Shown here one piece after another: positions 313 through 21,186 of a stretch of 29,983 nt of DNA. The first letter of the stretch is position 1. Each line of letters opens with the position of its first letter. The notes beneath the pieces were generated by a model. It did not search any database, was not told the origin of the DNA, and saw only the letters and a list, made by a program, of their open reading frames with translations. The translations under genes and the position numbers were made by a program. The DNA is from a virus, in the IMG/VR virus record IMGVR_UViG_3300032820_000072, positions 1-29,983 of that record. One strand, 5' to 3'.

Positions 313-314
313 CG

Positions 315-1949: not shown

Positions 1950-1960
1950 TTTTTTAGGTA

Positions 1961-2218: not shown

Positions 2219-2586
2219 TGCGGCTCCCGAGGTCCCTAAAGATTTGCGGTCATGTCTTTCAGGTCCGTAGCTGGCCACGTTCGCGCATGGACCCCCCAAA
2301 CAAACGCTCGCTCAAGAACAACGAGATTATCGGCCGCAAGTACCATCACTACGGCTCGATGTACCCTGACGACCAGCTCATCGTTATCTGTCGCGACCAG
2401 ACCGACCAGGCCAAGAAGGAATCCATCATCCATGAGTGCGGGCATGCTATTTTTGAATTTTGTCATCTCCGCGCTGAGCTAAAGGGGGGTGCCCGGACTG
2501 AGGAGAAGGTGGTGCAGGCTCTCGGCAATGCATTGATGATGTTGATGGATGATAACCCCAAACTCCTCGCCCTATTCGGTAAATAA
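2218..2586 (+). CDS. HExxH-motif protein, zincin-like (ImmA/IrrE-type fold possible)
   Basis: 122 residues from a GTG fused to the previous stop. The core is S-I-I-H-E-C-G-H-A-I-F-E, with H72, E73 and H76 forming a gluzincin-type HExxH site: two zinc ligands and the catalytic glutamate. The preceding segment (Q-L-I-V-I-C-R-D-Q) and the helix bearing HExxH resemble the minimal metallopeptidase core of ImmA/IrrE-type and related phage proteins. A distal third ligand is not obvious; acidic residues of the C-terminal helices could supply it. In phages such proteins are proposed to cleave repressors or host factors. The fold call is fair; protease activity and substrate are inference. Confidence 0.65.
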   Translation: MRLPRSLKICGHVFQVRSWPRSRMDPPNKRSLKNNEIIGRKYHHYGSMYPDDQLIVICRDQTDQAKKESIIHECGHAIFEFCHLRAELKGGARTEEKVVQALGNALMMLMDDNPKLLALFGK

Positions 2587-2791
2587 CCGTGCGGTTGCCA
2601 TCTCCGGTGCCGTGCTTGTTCTCGGTGGCCGAGCGTTGCTGGCATCCGGTCTCTACCTTCCTGGCTTTATTGTCTCACTGGTCGGTGATGGGTGCTGGCT
2701 CTACTACGGCGTGGCGACGAAGCAGTGGTCGCTGGCCATCCTCGACATGAGCCTACTGGTCATCGACACCATCGGGGCCTACCGGCAATGA
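2549..2791 (+). CDS. Small multi-span membrane protein
   Basis: 80 residues overlapping the end of the HExxH gene by 38 bases. It shows two to three hydrophobic segments: A-V-A-I-S-G-A-V-L-V-L-G-G, L-Y-L-P-G-F-I-V-S-L-V-G-D, and L-A-I-L-D-M-S-L-L-V-I-D-T-I. The central W-L-Y-Y-G-V-A-T-K-Q-W pattern recalls half-transporters of the SemiSWEET/PnuC/YgjV type, where W-x-x-Y-G-x-x-x-x-x-W separates helices. A holin is the main alternative given its size and phage context, but no lysin gene is beside it. The stop overlaps the next start as ATGA. Confidence 0.55.
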   Translation: MITPNSSPYSVNNRAVAISGAVLVLGGRALLASGLYLPGFIVSLVGDGCWLYYGVATKQWSLAILDMSLLVIDTIGAYRQ

Positions 2792-3558
2792 ACAATAAGG
2801 ACCTCGTGTTCCTGGTCCCCGACGTCCACGTGCCCGCACACGACGAGGCCGCGGTGGAGGTGTGCCTGAAGGCGCACGAGTATTTACGCCCGCATAGAAC
2901 GATTCTGCTTGGGGATGTCCTCGATGCCGGTACGTTTTCTAGTTGGGGTGCATCAACAATCGCCGAGGTTCGAGTCCACAACTTCCAGTCGGAACTCGAC
3001 ACCGCTAAGGCGCTGCTCGCTCGCCTCGAAAAGAACACAGACAAGATAGTTTTCATCGAGGGCAACCATGAGTACCGCGTCGAGCGGTACTCGATACGCC
3101 AAGGACTGGCCGGCGTAGCAATCCACGAACTAATCAGCCCACGGGTCCACTTGTCGGCCGACCGCGAGAAGCCGTTCCAGTGGGTGCCATACGTTGAGCG
3201 CGGTGCCCTGAGTTTCTACCCCATTACCCGCGATTTAATTGCCTGCCACGGGTGGTCGCACGCTAAGCAATGCAGCACCCAAATGCTGGCACTGACCCAG
3301 TCCCGCTCGGTCGTCTTCGGTCATGTCCACCGGCAGGTATCGACGACGACTCGCGACCCGTTCTCAAATAAGCGCCGCGTGGCCTGGTCGCCAGGCTGCC
3401 TGGCTGGCCTCCAGCCCACCTACCTGCACGGCTCACCTGCCGAATGGACCCACGGGTTCGGGCTTGTCTATATTGGCAAGTCCGGCTTCTCGGAATACAC
3501 ATGCTCAATCAGTAAGGGGCAGACCGTCCTGCCTGACGGCAAGCTGATTGTGGCGTGA
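2788..3558 (+). CDS. Calcineurin-like metallophosphoesterase
   Basis: 256 residues from the ATG at 2788, which overlaps the preceding stop as ATGA; the longer in-frame ORF upstream is over-extension. All five blocks of the family are present in order: D12-x-H14 (P-D-V-H-V), G-D-V-L-D with D43 and D46, G-N-H-E at 92-95, H154 in A-C-H-G-W, and G-H-V-H with H179 and H181. These residues hold two metal ions that hydrolyse phosphomono- or phosphodiesters. Phage members are used in DNA/RNA end processing or nucleotide turnover; the substrate here is not deducible. Length is typical of single-domain phage enzymes. It sits in the accessory/nucleotide-metabolism region near the DUF3310 gene. Confidence 0.9.
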   Translation: MNNKDLVFLVPDVHVPAHDEAAVEVCLKAHEYLRPHRTILLGDVLDAGTFSSWGASTIAEVRVHNFQSELDTAKALLARLEKNTDKIVFIEGNHEYRVERYSIRQGLAGVAIHELISPRVHLSADREKPFQWVPYVERGALSFYPITRDLIACHGWSHAKQCSTQMLALTQSRSVVFGHVHRQVSTTTRDPFSNKRRVAWSPGCLAGLQPTYLHGSPAEWTHGFGLVYIGKSGFSEYTCSISKGQTVLPDGKLIVA

Positions 3559-3728
3559 ATATCTATCCGCGCCGCAGTATCCGCGACCGGCTCGGGCATG
3601 TCCCGTACTGCTATCGGTGCTGGAATCCGCTCCGGCCAGAGGATAAGGTGTATGACTATCTACGCGACGATAAGCAGGGCGGCTTGAAGCCGGTGTGCAG
3701 GGGGAAGTGTGAGCAGAGTAAACGGTGA
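3555..3728 (+). CDS. 57-residue zinc-ribbon-like protein
   Basis: GTG start overlapping the phosphoesterase stop as GTGA. Sequence begins M-N-I-Y-P-R-R-S-I-R-D-R-L. Two cysteine pairs, C-Y-R-C-W near residue 20 and V-C-R-G-K-C-E near residue 50, flank a charged loop; the spacing suits a single zinc site. It fills what would otherwise be a 150-base gap. It is the third Cys-pair mini-protein of the region and ends inside the next gene. Function unknown; a nucleic-acid or protein-binding adaptor is only an inference. Confidence 0.55.
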   Translation: MNIYPRRSIRDRLGHVPYCYRCWNPLRPEDKVYDYLRDDKQGGLKPVCRGKCEQSKR

Positions 3729-4002
3729 CGGCGGCCACTACCGCCACGGCGGCATGGAGCCGCTCGATTATATCGTGGCCAACGAGATGGGCTTTCGCGA
3801 GGGGAGCATTGTCAAGCTGGCGACCCGGTTTCGATTCAAGGGCGCGGATGACTGCCCCGACTGCCATCCGGGCGAGGCGTGCCCTAAGCATCAGGTGGCC
3901 GACCTACGAAAGATTCAGTTTTTTGTTTGCGAGCTAATCGAGGGCATTGAGGCCCAGGCGATTAAAGAACCATCACCAGGGAGTTATCCATATGACAGGT
4001 AG
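3709..4002 (+). CDS. DUF3310 protein (T7 gp1.7-like) with a CCCH insertion
   Basis: 97 residues. H-Y-R-H-G-G-M-E-P-L-D-Y-I followed by F-R-E-G-S-I-V-K-L-A-T-R-F-R-F-K-G and D-L-R-K-I-Q-F-F-V is the DUF3310 signature, the domain of T7 gp1.7, a nucleotide kinase linked to dideoxythymidine sensitivity. Between the last two blocks sits an extra segment with C49-x2-C52-x5-C58-x2-H61, zinc-knuckle-like spacing that I do not associate with the canonical domain. The GTG at 3709 is chosen because the ATG at 3754 would cut off the H-Y-R-H-G-G motif. DUF3310 call strong; kinase activity here is by family analogy; metal binding by the insert is inference. Confidence 0.85.
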   Translation: MSRVNGDGGHYRHGGMEPLDYIVANEMGFREGSIVKLATRFRFKGADDCPDCHPGEACPKHQVADLRKIQFFVCELIEGIEAQAIKEPSPGSYPYDR

Positions 4003-4159
4003 ATACCTAAGAGACAGTTACCCTAACCCGTTCGGCGTTGAGCCGTCGAGCAAGGAAGAGGCCCGGATGCAGAAGGCCCAGCGTGACTACGACATCGTCG
4101 TCAGTGCCGAGAACCGGGCTAAGGCCGCCAAGGAAAAGAAATCCAAGACTTCGAAGTAA
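3992..4159 (+). CDS. 55-residue basic protein preceding terminase
   Basis: Starts at ATG 3992 with CAGGGAG about eight bases upstream; an in-frame TTG at 3947 would extend it 15 residues but has no better site. Begins M-T-G-R-Y-L-R-D-S-Y-P-N-P-F-G and becomes a lysine/alanine-rich helix (E-N-R-A-K-A-A-K-E-K-K-S-K) to the stop. It overlaps the DUF3310 gene by 11 bases. It lies where a small terminase subunit is expected but is too short to call as one. Its A-rich 3' end (about 4130-4141) overlaps the likely start of the terminase coding frame, so it may be coupled or frameshift-linked to that gene. Confidence 0.6.
   Translation: MTGRYLRDSYPNPFGVEPSSKEEARMQKAQRDYDIVVSAENRAKAAKEKKSKTSK
4130..4134 (+). 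promoter_or_regulatory. Possible Shine-Dalgarno for a non-canonical terminase start
   Basis: AAGGA, six bases before an ATC codon at 4141 that is in frame with the terminase. There is no ATG, GTG or TTG in that frame between the stop at 4120-4122 and ATG 4243. If ATC is used as a start, this is the site that would direct it. Confidence 0.3.
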
Positions 4160-5523
4160 TCACCGAAGCGCACGACGCCGACGACGTCCAGCTTCCCCAT
4201 AAGTTCACGCCGCGGGACTACCAGCGCCCGCTCTGGAAGGCGATGTTCGAGGATGGGTATAAGCGCGCGTGCATCGTGGCACATCGGCGCTCGGGTAAGG
4301 ACCTGAACTCCATCCACCTGTGTTGCGCTAAGGCTATGGAGCGGGTCGGCTCCTACTGGATTATATACCCGACCCAGACACAGGCGCGCCGCTCTATCTG
4401 GTTCGGCATGACCGGCGATGGCACGCCCTACCTCGATGCAATTCCCCACGAACTACGCACGCAGGTCAACAACACGGAGATGCGGATACATCTCTGTAAC
4501 GGCTCCACTATCTCTTTTGTGTCAGCTTCGGACGTTGACCAGCTCGTCGGCGGAAACCCAATCGGGGTTATCTTCAGTGAGTACTCGCTGCCGGGCACGA
4601 ACATGGACAAGGCGTGGGACCTCGTCCGACCAATCCTGGCTGCGGCCGACAACGACGGGTGGGCCATAATGATTTACACCCCGCGCGGTCGGAACTGGGG
4701 GTGGACGCTCTTTAACGCAGCCGAACAATCCGAACGCTGGTTCACGCAGCGGCTGAGCGTGGACGATACGCGTCGCGCCGACGGGTCGCCCGTTATCAGT
4801 CCCGAGGCCATCGAGGACGAGCGCATCGCCGGCATGGACGAGTCGCTCATCCAGCAGGAGTTCTACGTGGACTGGGATGTCGCGCTCTCGGGTGCGTACT
4901 ACGCAGAGGACCTAAAGAAGGCCGAGGCTGAGAACCGCATCACCAATGTTCCCATCGAGGCCACGCTAGACCTTGAGGTTTCGATGGACCTTGGCATGGA
5001 CGATTCGACTGCGCTGATTTGCTTCCAGGTTCTCGGTGACCGAGAGGTTCGGGTGGTCGGGTATTACGAGTCCTCCGGCGAGGGGCTCGCTCATTACGTC
5101 CAGTGGATTCGGGACTTCGCGGCCAAGCACAAGGTCCGGGTCGGCCGCATCATCGCCCCGCACGACATCGAGGTCCGCGAGCTGGGCACTGGCGTCTCGC
5201 GAAAGGAGATGCTCGTCCGCATGGGCATCCGGGTCACGGTCGCCCCGAAGCTCAAGGTGCAAGAGGGCATCGACCAGGCCCGGCGGATGTTCCCGTTATG
5301 TTGGTTCGACAAGGAGCGGTGCGGCGAGCTGCTCGAACTGCTGGCGGCATACCGCAAGGAGTGGAACGAGAAGAACAAGGCGTGGCGCATGACGCCCGTC
5401 CACGATTACGCTAGTCACGCTGCCGATTCGTTCAGGTACTACGCATCGGTCTTTCGTCCAAGACGGGCCGATGCCGGCCGAGCGCCCATCATTGCCAACA
5501 CCGACTTCGACGTTTTCGGGTAG
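4141..5523 (+). CDS. terL: Terminase large subunit (start codon unresolved)
   Basis: Packaging motor ATPase/nuclease. Motifs: adenine-binding-like D-Y-Q-R-P-L-W just upstream of ATG 4243; Walker A A-H-R-R-S-G-K-D about 14 residues after that ATG; Walker B-like G-V-I-F-S-E-Y; and an RNase H-fold nuclease with acidic sites in S-M-D-L-G-M-D-D-S, P-H-D-I-E-V and H-D-Y-A-S-H-A-A-D. Starting at ATG 4243 gives 426 residues but removes the Q-like motif. The frame upstream is coding-like (26 of 31 codons from 4150 to 4242 end in G or C by hand count), yet holds no ATG, GTG or TTG back to a stop at 4120. ATC 4141 with AAGGA upstream, or a -1 frameshift from the preceding gene, could supply the N-terminus. 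The function is certain and the 5' end is not. Confidence 0.85.
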   Translation: MQDFEVITEAHDADDVQLPHKFTPRDYQRPLWKAMFEDGYKRACIVAHRRSGKDLNSIHLCCAKAMERVGSYWIIYPTQTQARRSIWFGMTGDGTPYLDAIPHELRTQVNNTEMRIHLCNGSTISFVSASDVDQLVGGNPIGVIFSEYSLPGTNMDKAWDLVRPILAAADNDGWAIMIYTPRGRNWGWTLFNAAEQSERWFTQRLSVDDTRRADGSPVISPEAIEDERIAGMDESLIQQEFYVDWDVALSGAYYAEDLKKAEAENRITNVPIEATLDLEVSMDLGMDDSTALICFQVLGDREVRVVGYYESSGEGLAHYVQWIRDFAAKHKVRVGRIIAPHDIEVRELGTGVSRKEMLVRMGIRVTVAPKLKVQEGIDQARRMFPLCWFDKERCGELLELLAAYRKEWNEKNKAWRMTPVHDYASHAADSFRYYASVFRPRRADAGRAPIIANTDFDVFG

Positions 5524-5983
5524 CCTGCTGCCCCGACGGGCTCGCTATGGAGAATCACTTATTGACTGGTGGGTCGTGTTCACCGACTATGACTGGCGCG
5601 AAGAGGACTCACGGCGGCATGGGGTTTGGTGGCAGCCCTGGAGATTGCTCACCCGGCCCGGCTTCCGACATTGCTTCGCGCTTAGAGCACAGCAGGGTGT
5701 ATGGACCGAAGTTAATTCCCATGTTTGCAACACAGATGTTACGGTTCTACCGACCGACGCATACCCCAACCTGCCTTACGACATGGCCCGACGAGGCAAC
5801 TGTCACATCATCCAAGTTATCCGATACCGGGGGCTCCAGTACATCCGCCGGGGACTCCGAGGTCAGTTCAACTGCGTCACCCTCACCAAGCACCTTCTCG
5901 GAATCGATGCCTCCTGGGTCCTCACACCGCATGCGTTATACAAATTCCTAATCAAAGAGGGGCACGTAGAGATTGAAACCTAG
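5471..5983 (+). CDS. Conserved phage protein, possible permuted papain-like fold
   Basis: Up to 170 residues from ATG 5471, which overlaps terminase by 53 bases; the conserved part starts at D-W-W-V-V-F-T-D. The pattern R-P-G-F-R-H-C-F-A-L with H67, an intervening V-W-T-E-V-N segment, then N-C-V-T-L-T-K-H-L-L-G-I with C135 and L-T-P-H-A-L-Y-K-F-L, matches a protein commonly found directly after terminase in T7-like podophages. The ordered His and Cys could be the dyad of a circularly permuted papain-like domain, but catalysis is not established. The competing ORF at 5547-5951 in another frame lacks these features. Start codon uncertain. Confidence 0.7.
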   Translation: MPAERPSLPTPTSTFSGSLLPRRARYGESLIDWWVVFTDYDWREEDSRRHGVWWQPWRLLTRPGFRHCFALRAQQGVWTEVNSHVCNTDVTVLPTDAYPNLPYDMARRGNCHIIQVIRYRGLQYIRRGLRGQFNCVTLTKHLLGIDASWVLTPHALYKFLIKEGHVEIET

Positions 5984-6185
5984 TAAGCCGAAGAAGACCG
6001 CCGCCCAACTCAAGGCTCAGCAGGCCCAGGCCGAGCAGCTCCAGCGCGACGAGACTCGGGTCGCCGCTAAAGAGGCGGCCCAACGTAAGCGCAAGATGGG
6101 CATGGAGTCGTTGTTGGGCTCCGGCGGCGAACTCGGGACCGGGGGGCCGCAGCCCGCGGCCACCAGCAAGCTGGGGACATACTAA
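5973..6185 (+). CDS. Small basic protein between terminase and portal
   Basis: 70 residues from TTG 5973, with AAAGAGGGG about ten bases upstream. The N-terminal half is a Lys/Gln/Ala-rich helix (A-A-Q-L-K-A-Q-Q-A-Q-A-E-Q-L-Q), likely coiled coil. The C-terminal half has M-E-S-L-L-G-S-G-G and ends K-L-G-T-Y, resembling a short-motif protein common next to podophage portal genes. It overlaps the preceding gene by 11 bases and its TAA is immediately followed by the portal GTG. Role unknown; a virion or portal-assembly accessory is likely from position. Confidence 0.6.
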   Translation: MKPSKPKKTAAQLKAQQAQAEQLQRDETRVAAKEAAQRKRKMGMESLLGSGGELGTGGPQPAATSKLGTY

Positions 6186-7838
6186 GTGCCCAAGAACGCG
6201 AGAACGCTGGTCCCCGAGGGCAAGGTCGTCGCGATGCGTGGCCGACGCCGCGGTCGGGGCAAGCCGTCCGATGCCGCCCAGTTGGTTAAGCGATTCGAGG
6301 CCGCCGCAGCGGGCCGCGACCTGTGGGCCTCGTATTGGCGTGAGTGTTATGAGTTTGCGCTTCCCCACAGGAACCTATTTTCCGGGCAGGCTGCTGGTGC
6401 GAAGAAGGACGGCAAGGTCTTTGACTCGACGGCCGTTGAGGCCGTCCAGTCGTTTGCGTCTGAGCTGTCACAGGCGCTCATCCCGCCGTTCCGGCGTTGG
6501 GTCCGGCTTGTCGCCGGCACCGATGTTCCAGAGGAGCACCGAGCCGAGATTAATCTTGCGCTAGACAAGGAGACCGAGGTCCTCTTCCAATACCTCGACC
6601 ACTCCAACCTGGCCACCGAATCACATGAAGCATTACTAGACCTGGCTGTCGGAACCGGAGCCCTGCAAGTCCAAGACTCAGGCGACGACACCAACCCACT
6701 TAGATTCACCGCCGTGCCACTGGCCCAGCTCGTCGTCGAGGAGGGGCCGATGGGTACGGTCGAGACCGTGTTCCGCGAGTACTCCATGCCGGCCCGCAAC
6801 GTCCAGCGCACCTGGCCGCAGGCTCGCGTATCGGACGCACTGGCTAGCCTCATCGAGCGCAACGGCGACGAGCGCGTCGGTCTAATCGAGGGCACGGTCT
6901 ACGACCCCGAGGGCGGCTATCGCTATGTCGTCATCGAGCGGGAAGGAAACCACCTGGCGGTTGATTCGTTCTTGGATGATAGCCCGTGGGTTATCTTCCG
7001 GTGGATGGTCGTCACTGGCGAGAAGTACGGCCGCGGGCCGCTCATGTCGGCGCTCCCCGACATCAAGACCGCCAACAAGGTCGTCGAACTCGTACTGCGT
7101 AACGCAGCCCTGGCCGTGTCGGCACCGATGCTGGCCGTTGACGACGGCATCTTGAACGCCCACTCAATCAGGCTTCGGCCGGGCGCAATCATCCCGGTCC
7201 TGAACCCCGACAGCCTTCGCCCGCTGGAGCTGGGCGGCAACTTCGACGTCAGCGAGCTGGTCCTAAATGACCTCAGACAAAGTATCCGCGAGAAACTCTA
7301 CGTACAGGAACTACCCCCCCTTGAAGGACAACCGCGCACCGCGACCGAGCTACAGATAAGAAATCAACAACTGTTGCGCCGTATCGGTTCGTCCTTCGGT
7401 AGGCTCCAGCACGAGCTGGTCTTTTCGGTAATTCGTGGGGCATTAAAAATCCTGCAACGTCGCGGCAAGATGGCACCCATCAAGCTCGACGGCCGCGAGG
7501 TCGATGTCGAGTTCCGCGGGCAGTTGGCCCAGGTCCAAGACCAGCAGGACGTCATGGTGCTCGAATCATTCCTCCAGATTGTCGGCGCGCTAGGCCCCGA
7601 GGTGACAGCCGGGACTTCACGCATCGAGGACATACCGGAGTATGTTGCCGGCAAGCTCGGCGTTCCCCAGGAACTCGTGCGGTCAAAGGCCGAGCGCGAG
7701 AAGATAAAGCAGGAGATGGCCCAGGCCGCCCAGCAGCAACAGGCCGAGGCCGCCGCTCTCTCGCCGCCCGCTACACCCGCCGGAACCGGCCCCGCGATTC
7801 TCGGAGCCCAGCCGGCGATACCGGGAGAGGGCGGCTAA
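6186..7838 (+). CDS. Portal / head-tail connector protein (T7 gp8-like)
   Basis: 550 residues, close to the 536 of T7 gp8. The N-terminal region reads L-W-A-S-Y-W-R-E-C-Y-E-F-A-L-P, typical of the podophage head-tail connector family (PF12236), with F-D-S-T-A-V-E-A-V-Q-S-F-A, then G-T-G-A-L-Q-V in the wing and G-E-K-Y-G-R-G-P-L-M-S-A-L-P-D-I-K-T-A-N in the stem region. The C-terminus is a Gln/Ala-rich coil and a Pro/Gly tail. It forms the dodecameric ring through which terminase packages DNA and to which the gp11-like tail ring attaches. GTG start directly abuts the previous TAA; its own TAA overlaps the next ATG. Confidence 0.92.
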   Translation: MPKNARTLVPEGKVVAMRGRRRGRGKPSDAAQLVKRFEAAAAGRDLWASYWRECYEFALPHRNLFSGQAAGAKKDGKVFDSTAVEAVQSFASELSQALIPPFRRWVRLVAGTDVPEEHRAEINLALDKETEVLFQYLDHSNLATESHEALLDLAVGTGALQVQDSGDDTNPLRFTAVPLAQLVVEEGPMGTVETVFREYSMPARNVQRTWPQARVSDALASLIERNGDERVGLIEGTVYDPEGGYRYVVIEREGNHLAVDSFLDDSPWVIFRWMVVTGEKYGRGPLMSALPDIKTANKVVELVLRNAALAVSAPMLAVDDGILNAHSIRLRPGAIIPVLNPDSLRPLELGGNFDVSELVLNDLRQSIREKLYVQELPPLEGQPRTATELQIRNQQLLRRIGSSFGRLQHELVFSVIRGALKILQRRGKMAPIKLDGREVDVEFRGQLAQVQDQQDVMVLESFLQIVGALGPEVTAGTSRIEDIPEYVAGKLGVPQELVRSKAEREKIKQEMAQAAQQQQAEAAALSPPATPAGTGPAILGAQPAIPGEGG

Positions 7839-8050
7839 TGGCTCGAAAGGGTCTTAGGCGTTGGCACTCCCGGCCAACCGATGTGGATGTGGCAGCCCCT
7901 CTCGTCGCCACGGTTGGGCCTCAAGCCGTCATGGTGGTCTCTGCCCGTTCATCCGTTACAGCCGTTCGGCCCGATACCGCCACCGATGCCGATACCGACG
8001 CGGTGGCGTTGGAGGCCAAACGCTATGCCATACTAACCTCGATACAGTAG
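7838..8050 (+). CDS. 70-residue hypothetical protein
   Basis: Starts at ATG 7838 in a TAATG overlap with the portal gene; its TAG is directly followed by the next ATG. The N-terminus is basic (M-A-R-K-G-L-R-R-W-H-S-R), followed by an Ala/Val/Thr/Asp-rich region without motif (T-D-A-D-T-D-A-V-A-L). Its perfect fit between two genes argues that it is real even though nothing in its sequence is recognised. An alternative ORF in another frame (7861-8163) would overlap the next gene by over 100 bases and is not favoured. Confidence 0.55.
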   Translation: MARKGLRRWHSRPTDVDVAAPLVATVGPQAVMVVSARSSVTAVRPDTATDADTDAVALEAKRYAILTSIQ

Positions 8051-8383
8051 ATGCCGCTTTCCGAGCAGCAACTAGCCCAAGGTCAGGCCCCCAGCACGGC
8101 CGCCGTCCTCTACTCCCCCGCGTCCAGCGAAACGGCGATTGTCCGCACAATCAATATCTGTAACACCGACACGGCCGCGCACACGGTACGAATCTTCCAT
8201 GACAACGACGGTGGGACCTTCGACGAGACCACGGCGCTGATATGGAATATGAGCGTGCCGGGCAACGGGACCGTCGTCTTCGACGTCTACGTCGCTATGG
8301 GCAACCCGGCCGGCCAGATTGGCATATACGCCAACACCGCAGAGAAGGTCACGGTGACTCTGTACGGCGCGGTGATAACCTAA
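8051..8383 (+). CDS. Small beta-rich virion protein
   Basis: 110 residues, almost all beta-strand: A-A-V-L-Y-S-P-A-S-S-E-T-A-I-V-R-T-I-N-I-C-N-T-D, H-T-V-R-I-F-H-D-N-D-G-G, W-N-M-S-V-P-G-N-G-T-V-V-F-D-V, and V-T-V-T-L-Y-G-A-V-I-T. Proteins with this layout, a jelly-roll-like sandwich, recur in phage structural operons as decoration, tail-tip or fibre-associated factors. Starts at the base after the preceding stop and ends in a TAATG overlap. A structural role is inferred from position and composition. Confidence 0.6.
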   Translation: MPLSEQQLAQGQAPSTAAVLYSPASSETAIVRTINICNTDTAAHTVRIFHDNDGGTFDETTALIWNMSVPGNGTVVFDVYVAMGNPAGQIGIYANTAEKVTVTLYGAVIT

Positions 8384-8964
8384 TGGGACTCAAGGATTTC
8401 GGTGGCACCACCACCTCGCCGCCTTCGACCGGCGGCACCGTCTCGACGGTCATCGCAGCGCAGCTCATGATGGCCGAATCCCCAGGCCCGGTAGTAGGCG
8501 ACCCCAAGAGCTTCATCCTCCAGCAGGTGCCAGCCGATGCTAGCCAGGTGGCCGTGTACCTCAACGGCCAGCGATGCACGTTCACTAGCGACCCGCAGGG
8601 CCGGACTGAGTTCTCGGTTGACGTCGCCACCAAGACTGTCGCGTTCGGCATCGCCCCTGACGCAGCAGACGTATTCCAATGCGACTACGCGATGCACCCG
8701 CCGCAGTCGGTGGTGCTCGGGGAGGATATTGCCACCTCCGGCGGGACCGCCTTCGACCTCACCACGGCACCCCGCAACACATCCGAGGTCGCGGTCTACC
8801 TAAATGGCCAGCGGCTCGAACAGGCTAACGATGATACGGCCCAAGCCTCACTTACTAACTCGGAGTTCGCCATGCAGCCGTTCAGCGCGAACAACCGATT
8901 CTATACCGGCTACGCAGCAACCAGCGAGGATGTGCTCATTGCGGACTATCTTAAAGAGTTTTAG
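8383..8964 (+). CDS. Beta-module virion protein with internal duplication
   Basis: 193 residues from ATG 8383 (TAATG with the preceding gene). Two homologous units are visible: F-I-L-Q-Q-V-P-A-D-A-S-Q-V-A-V-Y-L-N-G-Q-R near residues 45-65, and F-D-L-T-T-A-P-R-N-T-S-E-V-A-V-Y-L-N-G-Q-R near 125-145. Each is followed by strands and a D-Y segment (F-Q-C-D-Y; L-I-A-D-Y). The same V-x-V-Y-L-x-x module occurs near the C-terminus of the gp12-like protein and at the start of the 28069 fibre. Probably a capsid or tail decoration or an adhesion component. The next gene starts within its last 26 bases. Confidence 0.65.
   Translation: MGLKDFGGTTTSPPSTGGTVSTVIAAQLMMAESPGPVVGDPKSFILQQVPADASQVAVYLNGQRCTFTSDPQGRTEFSVDVATKTVAFGIAPDAADVFQCDYAMHPPQSVVLGEDIATSGGTAFDLTTAPRNTSEVAVYLNGQRLEQANDDTAQASLTNSEFAMQPFSANNRFYTGYAATSEDVLIADYLKEF
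8926..8930 (+). promoter_or_regulatory. Shine-Dalgarno deciding a TTG start
   Basis: GAGGA lies eight bases before TTG 8939. The in-frame ATG at 8930 would overlap this site and has none of its own. Confidence 0.5.
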
Positions 8965-10240
8965 CCTCGCGCTCATCCTGGCGCTGGCGACCAACGCCTA
9001 CGCTCGACCGCTACAGCCGTGGCAGGGCGGGACCGGCTGTGAATCCCCGGTGGCCTTTGGTTCGGCCCCCTCCACACCAAACGATGGGTCCATCTGCACA
9101 TTTTCTGACGGGACGGGTAGCGCCTGCTCGGGCGGGTCAGCCAACACGGTCTGCTTCTACAACGGGTCGGCGTGGACACCGTTCGGGGATACGCTGCAAA
9201 GCCTGAGCTGCGCCGATAACGAGTGCGCCGTCTACGACTCGGGCTCCTCTTCGTGGGCCTGCGACAGTTGCGGCAGCGGTGGTGGCGGCGGTGATGGCGA
9301 CATCACCGATGTATTCGGCTGCGCCGCTGACGACTGCGACGACATTTTGGCGGCCGACGGCGACACGCTCGACTTTGGGCTGGTCCTGCCGGGTGCCGGG
9401 GGCGACGGCATCATCCTGCCCCAGCAGGCCGGCGCGTGTACGGCGGCCACAGCCGAAGGCCAAATCTGCTGGGACTCAACCAACCACAAGCTCTACGTCG
9501 GCAACTCAAGCACGCCGACGGAAATTAACGGGGTGGAGTCTAGCGGCGCACTTGCCATTAAGGACTCCACCTCTGCCACGGTTGGCACCGATGTCGCCAC
9601 GCTCCAGTTTGGCAGCGACTTCAGCCTGGTCGCTTCTGGTTCCGAGGTCACAATCTCGAACGCCGGCAACCTGGGCTACTACCACATCGGCCAGGAGATT
9701 CAGTTATCCGACTTGCCGGCCGACGTAATGCGGCAGGACGTTGACCGCGAGATGGCGTCCGTCACCTGCACCCCGATGCCGGACTGCCTTCCCTACATCA
9801 CCATGAACGAGCCGGCCGCGGCCGGGCACGGGGCCACCAAGAACTATCACGACACGAATAGGACGCTGATGCTGAGTCTGCGCTGTAATAACTGCGACAT
9901 GGCCGGCGGAACCCACTACCGGGCCATCTCGGGGAGCGTCTATGCCTACGGGGACTCCTCGACCGCCTGGCAGCCGATGGCTATCGATTGCACGCTTTCG
10001 GATATTCGAGCCCTTACGTCTGCGACAGGCAGCGGCGAGGAAATAACCGTCAAGCTGGTGTACGGGGCCAGCACCGTCGATTGCGATTTGCCCGAGGACA
10101 CCAGCCCCCTCGCGTCATGCGTGAGTACGACCACAGAGGATGTGCCCGCAGGCGGGGTAGTCCATTGGCAGGTAAGCTGCTCAGGCACCTGTAGCGGCGG
10201 GCAGAACATCACCGCGTCGGCTATATGCGTCGGCGGCTAG
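8939..10240 (+). CDS. Exported cysteine-rich fibre-like protein
   Basis: 433 residues from TTG 8939 (the ATG at 8930 would add three residues). The first 22 residues are a textbook Sec signal: a basic start (M-R-T-I-L-K), a hydrophobic core (L-A-L-I-L-A-L-A) and a cleavage box N-A-Y-A before R-P-L-Q-P-W. The mature part is Gly/Ser/Cys-rich with many Cys pairs (S-C-A-D-N-E-C, W-A-C-D-S-C-G). A glycine hinge then leads to a fibre-type segment with G-D-I-T-D-V-F, G-Q-I-C-W-D-S-T-N-H-K-L-Y-V-G-N and further beta-rich sequence to C-V-G-G. Tail fibres use similar D-I-T-x-V and W-D-x-x-x-x-K-L-Y-V-G motifs. A cleavable signal and likely disulfides are unusual for a virion protein. Overlaps its exported partner by 16 bases. 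Confidence 0.7.
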   Translation: MRTILKSFSLALILALATNAYARPLQPWQGGTGCESPVAFGSAPSTPNDGSICTFSDGTGSACSGGSANTVCFYNGSAWTPFGDTLQSLSCADNECAVYDSGSSSWACDSCGSGGGGGDGDITDVFGCAADDCDDILAADGDTLDFGLVLPGAGGDGIILPQQAGACTAATAEGQICWDSTNHKLYVGNSSTPTEINGVESSGALAIKDSTSATVGTDVATLQFGSDFSLVASGSEVTISNAGNLGYYHIGQEIQLSDLPADVMRQDVDREMASVTCTPMPDCLPYITMNEPAAAGHGATKNYHDTNRTLMLSLRCNNCDMAGGTHYRAISGSVYAYGDSSTAWQPMAIDCTLSDIRALTSATGSGEEITVKLVYGASTVDCDLPEDTSPLASCVSTTTEDVPAGGVVHWQVSCSGTCSGGQNITASAICVGG

Positions 10241-13200
10241 CCGTACTCATTGTCGTCGCGGCGGTCGTCGCCCCGGCTGACGTATGGGCCGCACGGGTGA
10301 TGGCGACCGGGTTCGAGTGGTGCCACTACTCGGCCGGCGACGTTGTCCAGCCGTCCGCCAGCGAGTCCGACGGCAACGCCCGCAACGCGATATTCTCCGA
10401 CGAGTCTGACGGCGATAACAACGACCAGCGCATAACGACAGGCTTGCCGTCGCCCCGTGGCCTCTTCTGTAACCATGACTCACGGGGCGGCCTTCGCGGC
10501 AAGACCTGTACGGAGGACGCGAACTGCGGCAGCCACGGCCTCTGCGCTTCCGAGCCGAACAACGACTGCTCGCTTGAGATTACTCCGACCACTAAGACCG
10601 ATGAGTACGTCGAGATTTCCGGCCCCCCGTGGCTAACCAGCGCCCCCGCCCAGGTCTACGCCCATTTCCTGCTGAACATATCCGAGATACCCGAGAACGG
10701 GGACGCGGTTACGGTCATGGAAATCCGCGATGCGGACGACGACTTGGGCTGCTTCCTTCGTGCAACGCCGGGCACCGGGAGCGAGTACATACTGGAGCTG
10801 CTCTATGCCGACGACAACCCGGAATGTTCGGGTGGCACTAATAACGGGACTGAGTGCGAGCCGGAAGAACCTGGCGGCATGGAGTCAGATACCTGTACCT
10901 CCGAGACGGTGGGCGAGGCCAGTTGCTTTACGGCAGCCTTCGGGATGTCCATCTTGGCCGAGGACCAATGGTACGAGATTGTCGTCGGGCATGACGCCAC
11001 GACCCCCGGCCGGATTACCTGCTCGCTCTTCGAGGGCGGCTTTGCCAGGGGCAAGCGGTCGCGTCCGCAGGGGGTGTGCTCGGTGGATGGTGGCGCTTGC
11101 GTGACGGCTGACGACTGCGTGACCAGGCGATGCTCGGAGTATGTGTTCAACATCGACGTTGACCAGGATGGCGTAGCCACCTGCGACGACGACTCCGGCT
11201 GCGCCGGCACCTGCGACGTCCAAACCTGCCACACCAATATCGTGGGCGACGATAGTGCCGCCCGGCTCATCCTGGGCTCGACCGAGGCTTACGTCGATGC
11301 CGACAGCGACGACGCGGTCGGCGGCGTGCTCATTGATTACGGCGATAAGGTCGGCGACTCAGCATCCCAGTTCGAGGTCGGCTGGAAAATCAACTTCGAC
11401 GACCTAGTCATCGACGACGCCAGCCCCGACACGATGCTGGCCCTGCGGATTGCCGACCTACACCCGACCGCAGATGTAGCGCCCCCAGCGACCGGCTGCA
11501 TCTACTGTGACTACTATGATAACTCGACCGACGGCACTTGCCACACCAGCGTGGTGGCCTCCTGCCCGTGGGACTCGGATAGTGAGGACGGGAGCGGCGG
11601 GGTGGCCTTCTTCGACAACATCGACGACGCACTTGGTTGCGGAACCTGCGATGCCGGCGAGTCCGTCTGCGGCGGCGGCCTCACCGACTGCACATCTGAG
11701 GATGAGGCCATCGACTGCCTCACCGACTGCGTGGACCGTGGCGAGTCTAAGATTCACGAGTCGAAGGGGTTCGATAAGACCGGCGGCGGCGGCGAAGCGG
11801 AGCTGGTGATGGAGGACATCACCTGCCTGGACAGCGATGCTGACGATTGCGCCACAGCCACGCTCAGAACCGTCGGCCTTGTTGCGATGGCCAAGGACCA
11901 GGGCCGGTCGGGCACAGGCAAGAACAAGATGCTCAATCTGTGCTTCAAGAACGGCACGGACACGAACTGCCACGGCGACCTGGGTAACTCCTATAACTGG
12001 ATTAACGTGGCCCGACATCGGAATGGAGCCGGCAGTTATCAACCTTACATGCCGGAGTTTTTTCTCGCACCTGCCGCGCCCGATGCCGGTGCGTGGACTG
12101 TGGCTGATGCGAATGCGGCTGCCGCCTTCCTTCAGTACGACCGAGGGGGCTCGGGCGGGTCGGTTCGAGTTACGGAGCTTGTTGCGGAAATTGAGGTTGA
12201 AATGGACGCTCCGACGCGGGCGGATGTCCCTGACATCAACGGTGACGGAGAGAAAAGGTTCTGTCTCGCTGGAGATAGTGTGGTAACTGACAATAAGCTG
12301 CACGCCCTGATTGGGGCGTACATGACGCAGTTCGAGCACATAATGACCTGTACCAGGGGCTCGACCCTGCTGGGCGACGTCGAGCAACAGATTGGCCCGA
12401 TGTTGGATGGGGTTCTCGGGGGCCGCCAGGATTGCCAGATGCTTCTTGGCGATGCCGGCCCATGCGATTACTTGATGCTGGTCAACGGCGTCAACACGCT
12501 CTTCGGCGGCAGCTCGACGCCCAGCTCGTATTGTTCGAGCGGGGATGACGTTGGCTACCCATGCGTCTACTGCACCAAGCGTTGTGATAACGGCGAGCCA
12601 TGCACGGCCGACTCCGACTGCACCGGCACCTGTTCGGATTCTGAGTCCGACTGCGGGACTGGTAATACCTGTGCCGATAATACCTGCGACAACGAGTGCG
12701 CGGGCGGGAGCTGCGACTACTACCCGCAAGGGTATTGCCGTGGCGGGACCGACCACGGGAAGCCTTGCGGTTGCGGCACCGCCCCCCGGCCGATTTCTGA
12801 TTCGCGTTACGAGGAGCTTGGGTCAGCCGGGTACTGCATCAACAACGCCGACTTCAACGGCGACGAGACGTTTGGCGACCATTGGCTAGACCCGATTGGC
12901 GATGGCGTGGGCATGGTGCTGAAGGGCACCTGCAACCGGACCTACCTGGGCGACAGCCCGTGCAGCGAGGACAAGGGCGGCGAAAAGGCTCTGGACTGCC
13001 GGACCAACGTCGCGTGTGACGACGCCGATGACTGCCACGGCTCTGATTGCGACGACGGCGAGTGCGTGGGGGCTTGCGCCGGTAGCTGCAAGGGGGGCAC
13101 CGACGCTGGGGACTTTTGTGTCGAGAACGACGACTGTGAGGGCGGCTACTGCAACTCGTTCTGCTTTCGCTCGTTGAGCGGGTTCCCGTCCGGTGACGAG

Positions 13201-13953
13201 GGCGGCTACGACCACGCCGGATATGCGACAGCGCACAAGGCTTACCCGTCGGTCTGGGGTGCCCTTGGCTGCGTAGGGGCGACCAACTGCTCGGGCGGGC
13301 TCTGCATGAGTGCCAACCCCGTGGCTGAATACGAGCGGGGGTTAATGGGCATCGTCAGGACCGCCCGCAGCCGCACCGGCACACAGAAGGCACATATCAT
13401 CGTCGCCCCCCAGCCAGCCTCAGAGGAGGGCCTTTCTGGGTTGTCCCTGTTCAGCCAGCACCGTGCCCGGCAGCAGGCCATCGAGCGTATCGCCGTCCAG
13501 CTCGGCGACCAGGCGGACGACGTCAGCTACCTCAACCTCGATGCCTACTTCACCGCCAACTGCGCCGAGCAAAACAGGGCCAACTGCCTACGCGACACAA
13601 TCCATTGGTCGCAATGCACATCCGATGGGCACAAGGGCTCCTGTAACACCGACGTCGGCATCCAGCACGCGGCCGAGGCCATGTCGGCCTGCTTCTCGGG
13701 CCTTGACGGCCTTGCCGACGGGGTGTGTTCGAGCATCGCTAGTAGCTGTACGTCGAACTGCGCCAGCGGGACGAACGAAGGCGAGGCGTGCGTGGACGAC
13801 GGCGATTGCCCCAGCGGCACTTGCGTCGATGACGGACTGACCAACGGGAGCTGCACTTGCACCCAAGGCCGGCTCAAGTCAGCCTGCTCGGCGCACAAGG
13901 ATTGCCGGGTCTACGATTGCACCTTCCCCACCACGACCACGACCCTGCCATGA
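10225..13953 (+). CDS. Exported giant cysteine-rich protein with SGNH/GDSL-hydrolase-like core
   Basis: 1242 residues. Residues 1-22 form a Sec signal (M-R-R-R-L-A-V-L-I-V-V, then D-V-W-A before A-R-V). The first half looks like two lectin-like beta sandwiches separated by Cys clusters. The middle to C-terminal part has SGNH-type blocks: A-G-D-S-V with G683-D684-S685, N-G-V-N at 754-757, and D1124-T-I-H1127. Between and after them are disulfide-type repeats such as C-R-G-G-T-D-H-G-K-P-C, C-K-G-G-T-D-A-G-D-F-C and C-A-S-G-T-N-E-G-E-A-C, each followed by D-x-D/E-C-x-x-G-x-C. The protein ends T-T-T-T-T-L-P. SGNH enzymes remove acyl groups from glycans or lipids. Hydrolase identity is probable; the substrate and whether it joins the virion are unknown. 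Confidence 0.75.
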   Translation: MRRRLAVLIVVAAVVAPADVWAARVMATGFEWCHYSAGDVVQPSASESDGNARNAIFSDESDGDNNDQRITTGLPSPRGLFCNHDSRGGLRGKTCTEDANCGSHGLCASEPNNDCSLEITPTTKTDEYVEISGPPWLTSAPAQVYAHFLLNISEIPENGDAVTVMEIRDADDDLGCFLRATPGTGSEYILELLYADDNPECSGGTNNGTECEPEEPGGMESDTCTSETVGEASCFTAAFGMSILAEDQWYEIVVGHDATTPGRITCSLFEGGFARGKRSRPQGVCSVDGGACVTADDCVTRRCSEYVFNIDVDQDGVATCDDDSGCAGTCDVQTCHTNIVGDDSAARLILGSTEAYVDADSDDAVGGVLIDYGDKVGDSASQFEVGWKINFDDLVIDDASPDTMLALRIADLHPTADVAPPATGCIYCDYYDNSTDGTCHTSVVASCPWDSDSEDGSGGVAFFDNIDDALGCGTCDAGESVCGGGLTDCTSEDEAIDCLTDCVDRGESKIHESKGFDKTGGGGEAELVMEDITCLDSDADDCATATLRTVGLVAMAKDQGRSGTGKNKMLNLCFKNGTDTNCHGDLGNSYNWINVARHRNGAGSYQPYMPEFFLAPAAPDAGAWTVADANAAAAFLQYDRGGSGGSVRVTELVAEIEVEMDAPTRADVPDINGDGEKRFCLAGDSVVTDNKLHALIGAYMTQFEHIMTCTRGSTLLGDVEQQIGPMLDGVLGGRQDCQMLLGDAGPCDYLMLVNGVNTLFGGSSTPSSYCSSGDDVGYPCVYCTKRCDNGEPCTADSDCTGTCSDSESDCGTGNTCADNTCDNECAGGSCDYYPQGYCRGGTDHGKPCGCGTAPRPISDSRYEELGSAGYCINNADFNGDETFGDHWLDPIGDGVGMVLKGTCNRTYLGDSPCSEDKGGEKALDCRTNVACDDADDCHGSDCDDGECVGACAGSCKGGTDAGDFCVENDDCEGGYCNSFCFRSLSGFPSGDEGGYDHAGYATAHKAYPSVWGALGCVGATNCSGGLCMSANPVAEYERGLMGIVRTARSRTGTQKAHIIVAPQPASEEGLSGLSLFSQHRARQQAIERIAVQLGDQADDVSYLNLDAYFTANCAEQNRANCLRDTIHWSQCTSDGHKGSCNTDVGIQHAAEAMSACFSGLDGLADGVCSSIASSCTSNCASGTNEGEACVDDGDCPSGTCVDDGLTNGSCTCTQGRLKSACSAHKDCRVYDCTFPTTTTTLP

Positions 13954-14168
13954 GTGAGCCCATCAAAGACGTAGCCATCACCTTTGCCGCGGCCTTCTCA
14001 TCGGAGGCGGGCAAGAAGGTGCTAGCGATACTGCGCGAGAACTATCTCGACGAACCCGCGTGGCTCCCCGGACAGGACCCCAGCATGGGCTACTTCCGCG
14101 AGGGCCAGAACGATGTTATCCGTAAAATACTAGACGCCGTCGAGGACGGCCTGAATAGGAGTAAGTAA
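13950..14168 (+). CDS. Bbp19-like small head protein
   Basis: 72 residues from ATG 13950 (ATGA overlap); the longer in-frame ORF from 13857 is over-extension. The pattern F-A-A-A-F-S-S-E-A-G-K-K-V-L-A-I-L, then G-Y-F-R-E-G-Q-N-D-V-I-R-K-I-L, matches the Bbp19 family of short podophage proteins (F-x-x-x-x-G-x-x-V-L followed by F-R-E-G-x-R), found between portal and scaffold. Its exact role is not known. The neighbours fit, and the TAATG with the scaffold gene suggests coupled translation. Confidence 0.7.
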   Translation: MSEPIKDVAITFAAAFSSEAGKKVLAILRENYLDEPAWLPGQDPSMGYFREGQNDVIRKILDAVEDGLNRSK

Positions 14169-14926
14169 TGCCAGAGATTGAGATAACCGAAGAACAAGCG
14201 CCAGAGACCCCCGCATCCGAGGATTCATCTCTACTCGCACCGGACACCCCTGCCGAGCCAGCCGGGGAACCGGGCGAGGAGGCCCCATGGCTGTGGTCCG
14301 ACGGGCAACCGGGAGAGGGCGACCGGCCCGAGTGGCTGCGTGACAAGTACTCCAGCGTTGAGGCTCAGGCCCAGGCTTACGGCCACCTTGAGGGCAGGCT
14401 CGGTGGGTTCACCGGGGCACCCGAGGGCGACTACGAGCTAAGGGTGCCCGAAGGGCTCAGTGGCGAGCTGCTCGAAGAATCGGCGCTCAGGAGCGCCATC
14501 GATGAGGTCTGTAAGACCAACGGGGCGTCCCAGACGTTCTACAACCAACTGACCGAAGCCTACCTGACGGCCCTGGCCGTCGAGAATACCGTCTCGAAGA
14601 ACACCGAGATGGAGGCACTCGGGGCCGACGGGCCGCAGATGGTTAAGGACCTACAGGACTGGGGTCAGGCTAATCTGCCGGCCGAGGACTACGCGACCAT
14701 GCAGGCTCTGTGTACGTCCGCCGCTGCGGTCAAGTTTTTTCAGGTATTAACTAACAAGGTGAGTTCGGCTACACCTGTAGCTAAGGATGATACAACAGCC
14801 GGCACAGGAGATGGGCTTGACGAGGCGCGACTACACGCGCTCCTTGGCGACCCCAAGTGGGTCGATGACCCAATCTTCCAGGCCGAGACGATGAAGAAGT
14901 TTAAGAATTTCTACGGGGAAGAGTAA
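14168..14926 (+). CDS. Capsid scaffolding protein (T7 gp9-like)
   Basis: 252 residues, shorter than T7 gp9 (307). The N-terminal 60 residues are acidic and disordered (E-I-T-E-E-Q-A-P-E-T-P, rich in Glu/Pro), followed by R-P-E-W-L-R-D-K-Y and G-D-Y-E-L-R-V-P-E-G-L, then helices, a disordered Thr/Asp-rich break, and a C-terminal helix D-D-P-I-F-Q-A-E-T-M-K-K-F-K-N-F. The P-E-W-L-x-x-K-Y and Y-E-L-x-V-P pattern is the standard look of podophage scaffold/assembly proteins, and the gene directly precedes the capsid gene. It would template procapsid assembly and then leave. Confidence 0.85.
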   Translation: MPEIEITEEQAPETPASEDSSLLAPDTPAEPAGEPGEEAPWLWSDGQPGEGDRPEWLRDKYSSVEAQAQAYGHLEGRLGGFTGAPEGDYELRVPEGLSGELLEESALRSAIDEVCKTNGASQTFYNQLTEAYLTALAVENTVSKNTEMEALGADGPQMVKDLQDWGQANLPAEDYATMQALCTSAAAVKFFQVLTNKVSSATPVAKDDTTAGTGDGLDEARLHALLGDPKWVDDPIFQAETMKKFKNFYGEE

Positions 14927-15086: not shown

Positions 15087-16019
15087 ATGGCACAATTGCC
15101 AGCAGTCGCCGTTAGTTTATGGGCGGCTGAAGTAAAACAAGCGTACCAGCAGACTCAGTCTCGACTGAGAAATGCTGTAACGCTACGCACGGGCGTCAAA
15201 GCCGACATCTACAATTTTAGGAAGATGGACGCGATGGCCGCCATTGAATGGGACCAGGCGAACGCAGCCTCCGGTTCGGGTATTCTGCCCGCTGCTGTGG
15301 GTGCCGATGGTGCCGACTACGGCTTCCCAGACCTCCCTGGAAAGACGGCCGGCCACTCGAAGGTCGCATGCACACCGTCTAATTACGTTGCCCACGCGTA
15401 TACTGACTGGGCGGAATTAACGGAAATTAATTTCGACGAGCGTCGGGAGCTTGCTACTGCTTTGGCAGCTAGCATCAACCGTCGCACTGACCAGTTGGTT
15501 CTCGATGCGCTTGAAGGCGCAACGGGCGCGGCCGTCGGCGCGGATGGCGAGAAGTTTGACCTGGATGTGCTCCGCACTGCGAAGTACAACCTCGACAAGA
15601 ACAACGTCCCTCAAGAGGGCCGTACTCTCGTCTGTCATGCTTCGGCTATCTATGACATGCTTGGTGAGAGTAACCTGACCAGCATCGACTACATGAACGC
15701 GAAGGCCATCGTCGATGGCCGGCTCGACAATCAAACGCTTGTCGGCTTCAACGTGATTATGGTCGGTGACGGCACGGGCGTCACTAGCGATGCTGCGGGC
15801 ATCGCTGACGGGTCGGGCTCTGACACCAAGAAGGCGTATGCTTTCCACAAGTCTGCCGTAGGCATGGCTGTGGGGGCAGAGCTGAAAACCTCGCTGGATT
15901 TCATTCCAGAGAAGTTAAGCTACCTGACTGCTTGCCAGTTCAGGGCCGGTGCGGTTGCCATTGACAACAATGGCATCGTGGAAATCACGCACGAGGGTGG
16001 GACTGGAACCAAGACCTAA
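15087..16019 (+). CDS. Major capsid protein (HK97-fold, T7 gp10-like position)
   Basis: 310 residues with GAGGA six bases upstream. The N-terminal helix L-W-A-A-E-V-K-Q-A-Y-Q-Q-T-Q-S-R-L-R-N, the E-loop-like D-A-M-A-A-I-E-W-D, R-R-T-D-Q-L-V-L-D-A-L in the spine helix, and the late block A-Y-A-F-H-K-S-A-V-G-M-A-V-G-A-E-L with A-I-D-N-N-G-I-V-E-I are typical of podophage capsid subunits. T7 gp10A is 345 residues. It follows the scaffold gene and is the only gene bracketed by non-coding gaps on both sides, with a terminator-like hairpin behind it, consistent with very high expression. No gp10B-type frameshift extension is evident. Confidence 0.9.
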   Translation: MAQLPAVAVSLWAAEVKQAYQQTQSRLRNAVTLRTGVKADIYNFRKMDAMAAIEWDQANAASGSGILPAAVGADGADYGFPDLPGKTAGHSKVACTPSNYVAHAYTDWAELTEINFDERRELATALAASINRRTDQLVLDALEGATGAAVGADGEKFDLDVLRTAKYNLDKNNVPQEGRTLVCHASAIYDMLGESNLTSIDYMNAKAIVDGRLDNQTLVGFNVIMVGDGTGVTSDAAGIADGSGSDTKKAYAFHKSAVGMAVGAELKTSLDFIPEKLSYLTACQFRAGAVAIDNNGIVEITHEGGTGTKT

Positions 16020-19548: not shown

Positions 19549-21186
19549 ATGGCCAAGACCGACATACAGCCCACTCTCCAACGACGCCCCCGCACCCGCG
19601 CCGGCAAGGGGGCCGAACAGGGTGACTTCGAGCGGCCCGTCGCCAGGATACCTGGCGGCATCAACGTCGGTCAGTCCGGCGGGGCCGAGGCTTGGCAGCA
19701 GCTAGCCCGCACGCTCGACACGTTCCGTGGCGAGGTGGCGGCCTACCGCAAGGACGAGAGCAACCTGGAGGTCATCACGGAGTCCCGTGCGGCCGACGTC
19801 TCGGTCTCAAGAATCGAGGTTGAGTCCGACGACAACCTGGACACATTCAACGAGCGGCTCAGGAGGAACAGGGAGGGTGCCCTCAAGGGGCTATCCCCCC
19901 GCGTGGCCGAGCGTGTGGGCGCGGAGTTCGACTACCGCGCGGGCTTAGCACGCAATCGCATCGTGGGCCGGGAGCTGGAACGGGACAGGCTGTTTCGCGC
20001 CGAACAGATGGAGGGCGCGATTGGTGCCGTTTACAACAAGGCGGCCAGTGTGGCCCGCGACCGGGACCTCTCCACGGAGGCGCGGGACGACGCGGTACTA
20101 CAGGAGGGGCTTCGGTTTCACGAGGTCCTCGCGGTGGGTGTTCAGGATGGGGTGCTGGACGAGGACGCGGCCGAGAAGGCTCGGCGCAAGTACGCCGAGG
20201 ACCTCCTCGAACAGATATACATCGGGGACTGGGAGCGCGGGGACATTGATTACGCTGAGTTTGTCACTGGCGGGCCGCCCCCCGAGATGCACCCCCAGAC
20301 CTACGACCGGCTGGTTACCCGGTTCGGCCAGGACCTAACCGCCCGCCGGCTGGCCAACGAGCGTAACGACAAAGAGGAGGGGGAGGTAATAGAGGCGGAA
20401 CAGGAGCGAACCGCCTTCAACCTTACGTACCGACTAGTAAACCAGGGCGTCGTCGATGTGCCCGGAGGGACGTCGAGCGGAATCTACGGTCCCGTGACCG
20501 GGGCCGAGGTCCGGCATCTAGTCGAGACGGGGGCGCTGGACGCGAAGTTCGCCACCACGTTTGTTCAGGACCTCTTTGTGGAGGGCGGCATAGATGACGC
20601 GGACCTCGTCGCTAGCTTCCGTGTGCGTATCGCTCAGGGCGAGGATGTAACGGCAGAGGTGTTGGCAGCGGCTCGAAACGGCGACGGCGTCTCAAGGGAC
20701 ACGCGGGACGGATTGGTTGGCGATAGCATCGCCGGCCAGAAAGCTACCGGGCCTATCCCCGAAAGCCGGAGGTGGTTGCTGTCTATGGTCGATGTGAAGG
20801 ACGGGTGGACTGCCGGCTCTCCGGGGGACATGCACCCACGACTCGCGGTGGCGCTACGGGAGTTCAACGACCGGCTCGACGAGTACTCGGCAGAGCAGAG
20901 GCCCGGTGTCGCTCGGCAGGTAGCCGAATCGGTCCTTGAGCACATGAGGGTTGAGCGTGACGCACGCACGCTCCCCCCCCCGCGCTACGCGATATGGGCG
21001 GACAAGGACAATGGGATACTGGACGCAGACGCCACGGAGGACGCACTCTGGGCTGAGCTAACGGACTTGGGGGCAGGGTTCTCCCTTCATCCCGCATATG
21101 CACCACCCGAATTCCACCGGCAACTAAGGATTGTGCGTGAGTGGAGAGACGCCGGGTTCACCGGCCAGAAGAGGGACACAGAGTAG
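19549..21186 (+). CDS. Internal virion protein in gp15 position
   Basis: 545 residues, shorter than T7 gp15 (747). It opens with a disordered basic stretch, then becomes almost wholly helical and charged (A-W-Q-Q-L-A-R-T-L-D-T-F-R-G-E-V-A-A-Y). The D-A-V-L-Q-E-G-L-R-F-H and A-E-K-A-R-R-K-Y-A-E-D-L-L-E segments are typical of tube-forming internal core proteins. No enzymatic motif seen. Direct homology to gp15 cannot be read by eye, so the call rests on position between gp14-like and giant gp16-position genes and on composition. Stop in TAGTG with the next gene. Confidence 0.65.
   Translation: MAKTDIQPTLQRRPRTRAGKGAEQGDFERPVARIPGGINVGQSGGAEAWQQLARTLDTFRGEVAAYRKDESNLEVITESRAADVSVSRIEVESDDNLDTFNERLRRNREGALKGLSPRVAERVGAEFDYRAGLARNRIVGRELERDRLFRAEQMEGAIGAVYNKAASVARDRDLSTEARDDAVLQEGLRFHEVLAVGVQDGVLDEDAAEKARRKYAEDLLEQIYIGDWERGDIDYAEFVTGGPPPEMHPQTYDRLVTRFGQDLTARRLANERNDKEEGEVIEAEQERTAFNLTYRLVNQGVVDVPGGTSSGIYGPVTGAEVRHLVETGALDAKFATTFVQDLFVEGGIDDADLVASFRVRIAQGEDVTAEVLAAARNGDGVSRDTRDGLVGDSIAGQKATGPIPESRRWLLSMVDVKDGWTAGSPGDMHPRLAVALREFNDRLDEYSAEQRPGVARQVAESVLEHMRVERDARTLPPPRYAIWADKDNGILDADATEDALWAELTDLGAGFSLHPAYAPPEFHRQLRIVREWRDAGFTGQKRDTE

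Follow-up and report, generated by a model that had tools for sequence, protein, structure and literature searches.

We analysed a 29,983-base stretch of viral DNA (IMG/VR virus record IMGVR_UViG_3300032820_000072; linear and possibly a fragment), which we call the window. Between its portal and scaffold genes, the window carries two consecutive genes, P0001 and P0002, and both are predicted to encode large, cysteine-rich proteins that are exported from the cytoplasm. The features of the two genes are as follows.

8939 to 10240, plus strand: P0001, TTG start, predicted exported cysteine-rich fibre-like protein of 433 amino acids
8939 to 9004, plus strand: predicted Sec-type signal peptide of P0001, MRTILKSFSLALILALATNAYA followed by RPL, rule-based score 13.7
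9278 to 9526, plus strand: two-cysteine fibre motif of P0001, GDITDVF.C...DC...EGIILPQ...C..ATAEGQICWD...LYVG, with both cysteines invariant in seven aligned copies
10225 to 13953, plus strand: P0002, predicted exported cysteine-rich protein of 1242 amino acids, with a split SGNH-hydrolase-like domain and a C-terminal PTTTTTLP
10225 to 10290, plus strand: predicted Sec-type signal peptide of P0002, MRRRLAVLIVVAAVVAPADVWA followed by ARV, rule-based score 16.8
12271 to 12279, plus strand: SGNH block I of P0002, GDS, residues 683-685, in register with the PF13472-family profile
12487 to 12495, plus strand: SGNH block III of P0002, GVN, residues 755-757, aligned to the family GVND
13594 to 13605, plus strand: SGNH block V of P0002, DTIH, residues 1124-1127, aligned to the family DGLH
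13930 to 13950, plus strand: TTTTTLP, C-terminal tail of P0002

P0002 starts at ATG 10225. The most likely start of P0001 is TTG 8939, separated by a spacer of 9 nucleotides from GCGAGG at 8924-8929; ATG 8930 is unlikely as the P0001 start because it abuts this Shine-Dalgarno sequence. We scored export signals with a purpose-written rule-based scorer, not SignalP, which in E. coli K-12 passes 11/12 exported, 0/37 cytosolic and 6/24 membrane proteins and does not formally separate a cleaved signal from an uncleaved anchor. The original prediction that both genes open with signal peptides was borne out: P0001 and P0002 are the only positives among the 23 open reading frames (ORFs) of the window, and for each of them 0/2000 shuffled N-termini reach the native score. 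Both N-termini have a basic n-region, a hydrophobic core of 8-16 residues and small residues at –3 and –1, as expected of type I Sec signals, and the uncharged cores of approximately 14-16 residues are short for a membrane anchor. In P0002, the best-scored cut is after A18 and the site after A22 is equally plausible. The mature chains contain 22 cysteines in 412 residues (5.3%) for P0001 and 86 in 1220 (7.0%) for P0002, as compared to 29 in 6615 (0.44%) for the other window proteins, an enrichment of 12-16 times (binomial tails 4e-17 and 6e-72) that agrees with the cysteine-rich chains first described. On these sequence features, Sec export of both proteins is very probable, and the signals are presumably cleaved and the mature chains disulfide-bonded. 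In reference relatives with a portal of this kind, the scorer passes 1/463 genes from the portal gene onward; the premise that virion proteins lack export signals thus holds for known relatives, but among metagenomic phages there are whole groups in which it breaks down.

The fibre motif of P0001 (residues 159-241, numbered from the frame start at 8804) matches signal-bearing fibres (phmmer, 4e-35 to 1e-9) and is present in five other metagenomic phage records, where it lies in fibre-like ORFs of structural regions. The N-termini of these five ORFs are signal peptides or signal-like, the one in G002 as judged by eye. One of the five is the exported fibre that adjoins an exported nozzle in contig L010 (E 1.4e-9). 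A PHROG search with P0001 returned no fibre match, and it is the motif that carries the fibre homology. A likeness of the P0001 C-terminal domain to the fibre C-termini of L009 and L005, suggested by eye, did not rise above shuffles. Genome scans with the motif returned cellular proteins only; in Patescibacteria and Omnitrophota, very large cellular proteins of fibre-like type contain it (L013, L014 and L015), and two of these have signal-like N-termini.

Following the relatives of P0001 led to an uncultured clade of LUZ24-like podoviruses (IMG/VR contigs L148, L161-L185; e.g. L155, L158), all of which are metagenomic contigs. In the structural regions of G005 and G006, signal-bearing genes occur in runs. 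The nozzle of G006 (L010 7570-9444) is homologous from residue 33 to a LUZ24-like 'particle protein' (phrog_3287, 9e-30), and the nozzle homologue of isolate SCYZ1 has no signal and starts where the mature chain of the L010 nozzle would begin. One signal-bearing protein of G005 is homologous to a cyanophage S-H9-1 protein that is annotated as virion structural and has no signal; the structural region of this 59-kb phage (L009 4794-20237) contains eight signal-bearing genes. Nozzle scans yielded 26 contigs, in which we counted signals among genes with a complete start. We found that the scorer passes 24/25 nozzles, 17/18 decoration-like proteins, 18/18 small adaptors and 20/20 fibres, but 0/19 capsid and 0/22 neck proteins; the 25th nozzle fails the scorer and looks signal-like. 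Across the nozzle alignment, mean identity is 30% in the signal region and 53% in the mature region, indicating that the signal property is kept while the letters drift. The exported genes of the clade are also higher in cysteine and in serine plus threonine than other genes of the same contigs.

Beside the exported genes, the structural operon of the clade contains a gene for a Wzy_C (PF04932) membrane protein (G006, G069-G089 and G091-G093; in L155 at 7829-8968). It is found in 25/25 clade contigs that cover the region (22 above the curated cut-off and 3 below), between the genes for the decoration-like protein and the neck protein. The match in G002 is weak; our search found no Wzy_C gene in SCYZ1, in any of 43 portal relatives without exported tail genes (0/43), or in G001, G004, G005 and the window (G000), which may be a fragment. 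Among Wzy_C proteins are O-antigen ligases and protein O-oligosaccharyltransferases, which work on the periplasmic side of the membrane, and the clade sequences do not separate one activity from the other. The phage Wzy_C protein may glycosylate outer-surface proteins of the clade.

In P0002, the GDS, GVN and DTIH motifs flank a long cysteine-rich insert, and they have the order and register of SGNH blocks I, III and V (GDS, GxN, DxxH). Using hhalign, we aligned a splice of P0002, made with the motifs as a guide and with the insert omitted, to an SGNH profile made from PF13472 proteins of Omnitrophota. The spliced segment aligned end to end with a score of 28.0, as compared to at most 19.6 for 200 shuffles and at most 20.9 for other window segments. 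The whole of P0002, its fragments and the spliced segment all stayed below the curated PF13472 cut-off; we therefore call P0002 SGNH-like rather than a member of the SGNH family, and the evidence is moderate because the splice was guided by the motifs. P0002 may have SGNH-type activity, and one could guess that its TTTTTLP tail is an O-glycan acceptor. A visual resemblance of the P0002 N-terminus to an exported protein of G005 gave no phmmer match.

The pair is set in a head operon of the following layout.

4243 to 5523: terminase
6186 to 7838, plus strand: portal (PF12236, 2.7e-105)
7838 to 8050: first of three small genes upstream of the pair
8051 to 8383, plus strand: 110-amino-acid protein with no signal, 5' of the pair within the coupled operon
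8383 to 8964, plus strand: P0004, two-repeat protein without signal, overlapping the start of P0001
13950 to 14168, plus strand: Bbp19-like pre-scaffold protein (PF25181, 1.6e-6), at the far edge of the insertion
14168 to 14926, plus strand: scaffold (PF05396, 1.8e-9)
15087 to 16019: capsid protein (PF19821, 1.5e-49)

To compare this interval with those of other phages, we used a portal profile search that returned 80 relatives, with 76 measurable portal-scaffold intervals, window included. The gap of 6330 base pairs (bp) in the window is the largest of the 76 (median 264 bp) and the only one with a signal-bearing gene (0/75 others), so that exported genes at this place are as unusual as originally proposed. 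The second-largest gap, 3045 bp in L085, contains a collagen-like tail-fibre gene without a signal (11547-13715), and in L028, L046, L065 and L080 the slot contains phosphoesterase and DUF3310-like genes; the slot therefore accepts fibres as well as cargo. The starts and stops of P0001 and P0002 overlap with neighbouring genes, and a promoter search found no consensus promoter-like site above chance, which together suggest that the pair is co-expressed with the head genes.

The gene order of the window is terminase, portal, scaffold, capsid, tail tubular A and B, ejection-like proteins and fibres, with the three small genes before the pair and the Bbp19-like gene 3' of it; equivalents of the latter are present in L085, L028 and L046. 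P0004 weakly matches a virion structural PHROG that is also matched by the window nozzle, P0007 (phrog_11431; 0.0045 and 1.7e-4). When we looked for relatives of the 110-amino-acid protein we found only the same phage, and neither this protein nor P0004 has relatives among GenBank phages. A search for transfer RNA genes in the window found none. A second contig of the same phage, L006, is 99.84% identical to positions 1-8837 of the window and ends at 8837, shortly before the exported block, perhaps owing to strain variation in that block. Upstream of the terminase are a phosphoesterase gene and a DUF3310-like gene (2692-3558 and 3709-4002), the pair that fills the portal-scaffold slot in the four relatives listed above, which are of Pelagibacter type. 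Further downstream are an ejection-like protein of 2308 amino acids with a RadC/JAB-like domain (21141-28067; Pfam, 2.1e-6) and a fibre-like gene with a 60-bp tandem repeat (29152-29335).

Taken together, these data suggest that P0001 and P0002 may be late Sec-exported, disulfide-bonded appendages of the outer particle surface, with P0001 as a fibre and P0002 as an SGNH-type esterase associated with it; we assign this reading a probability of about 0.48. The computed basis of this appendage reading is the signals, the cysteine content, the operon position, the shared fibre motif and a clade in which virion-surface genes, not capsid or neck genes, carry signals. Both proteins would be translated late, exported through Sec and then oxidised and disulfide-bonded outside the cytoplasm, where P0001 would act as a fibre and P0002 as a fibre-associated SGNH-like esterase; they would join DNA-filled heads when the compartments mix at lysis. 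The late timing and the attachment to virions are what we infer for these proteins. The original prediction had left open whether they form a virion appendage matured in the periplasm or have a late cell-surface function. We favour the appendage because of the P0001 motif, the fibre in the slot of L085 and the signal-bearing virion protein of the clade, while the SGNH motifs of P0002 and the non-structural cargo in the slot of four relatives keep the cell-surface function alive.

Several results weigh against an appendage. AlphaFold models of the SGNH half of P0002 (from its single sequence) and of the L010 nozzle have confidence (pLDDT) values of 33 and 38, too poor for fold searches. We found no homologues of P0002 in viral contigs, species genomes, GenBank phages or related records, and neither P0002 nor its pieces match Pfam, NCBIfam, PHROG or the PDB. 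The phosphoesterase and DUF3310-like genes of the relatives are a further point on this side. P0007 has no signal by the rule-based scorer and no Wzy_C gene is present in the 30 kb of the fragment, so that the window phage does not simply belong to the LUZ24-like clade.

The main rival is an exported pair that is not part of the virion: P0001 would mask the host receptor and P0002, as an SGNH esterase or deacetylase, would alter it late, and together they would block superinfection and keep progeny from re-adsorbing to debris, much as a receptor-destroying enzyme does. We hold this to be the less likely account, though a serious one. It accommodates the SGNH-like catalytic motifs, the export signals, a P0002 without virion homologue and the non-structural cargo that relatives have in this slot; however, the P0001 motif recurs in genes at the tail-fibre position, and another clade has signals on recognised virion proteins, so that a signal is no argument against virion origin. 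Accessory genes of the lysogenic-conversion type, acting on the host surface outside lytic growth, have precedents in the exported phage proteins Lom, Bor and Cor, but we consider them improbable here: the genes overlap within the head operon, promoter-like sites do not exceed chance, and no integrase was recognised among the searched proteins, which for a fragment is not decisive. It is slightly less probable still that the hydrophobic N-termini are uncleaved membrane anchors and that the pair aids envelope disruption at lysis; the scorer does pass some membrane proteins (6/24), but the short uncharged cores are followed by AYA- and VWA-type cleavage sites, and the mature chains, large and cysteine-rich, do not resemble spanins. 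Ordinary cytoplasmic virion proteins with signal-like N-termini by chance, for which we found no specific point in favour, are very improbable given the shuffles (0/2000), the reference genes (1/463) and the fact that both adjacent genes are affected and cysteine-enriched.

Textbook assembly of tailed phages is cytoplasmic. The signals kept on nozzle, decoration-like and fibre genes but not on capsid and neck genes would imply that some of the particle is matured beyond the cytoplasm, where disulfides could form and glycans could be added, and the window would represent a second lineage of phages, in which a fibre and its esterase-like partner are both exported. More tentatively, some tailed phages may build their particle in two compartments, with heads, neck and ejection proteins made in the cytoplasm and decoration, nozzle and fibres exported through Sec, disulfide-bonded and joined at lysis; in the LUZ24-like clade these parts might also be O-glycosylated by the phage-encoded Wzy_C/PglL-type ligase, and the window phage might use the same route for fibre and esterase only. 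We found no earlier report of signal peptides on tail proteins or of periplasmic virion maturation in the open-access literature, which does not prove novelty. These data also caution against treating signal-positive genes in phage structural operons simply as accessory genes.

The closest known layout is that of BPP-1/HMO-2011/MEP301-type podoviruses (PF12236 portal, PF05396 scaffold, PF25181 Bbp19), which share the order portal, Bbp19-like gene, scaffold, capsid, tail tubular A/B; the MEP301 portal is 38.5% identical to that of the window. In contrast to these phages, the window has 6.3 kb with two exported proteins where the median interval is 264 bp. In the LUZ24-like clade (L161-L185; phrog_3287), an exported fibre with the P0001 motif likewise adjoins other exported structural-region genes; however, the clade has signal-bearing nozzle and decoration-like genes and Wzy_C, neither of which is seen in the window. 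Phage tailspike SGNH esterases or deacetylases such as G7C gp63.1 resemble P0002 in their SGNH catalytic motifs, for which surface glycans are the expected target, but they are virion tailspikes assembled in the cytoplasm, whereas P0002 has a signal peptide, a cysteine-rich insert and no detectable sequence relative. Lom, Bor, Cor and Llp are, as P0001 and P0002 are predicted to be, phage-encoded and exported, but they are small outer-membrane proteins or lipoproteins, whereas P0001 and P0002 are large, cysteine-rich, fibre- or enzyme-like and encoded in the head operon. The coat proteins pIII and pVIII of filamentous phages are virion proteins routed through the inner membrane, as the appendage reading would have it for P0001 and P0002, although there the particle is an extruded filament and here it is a tailed phage with a DNA-packaging head.

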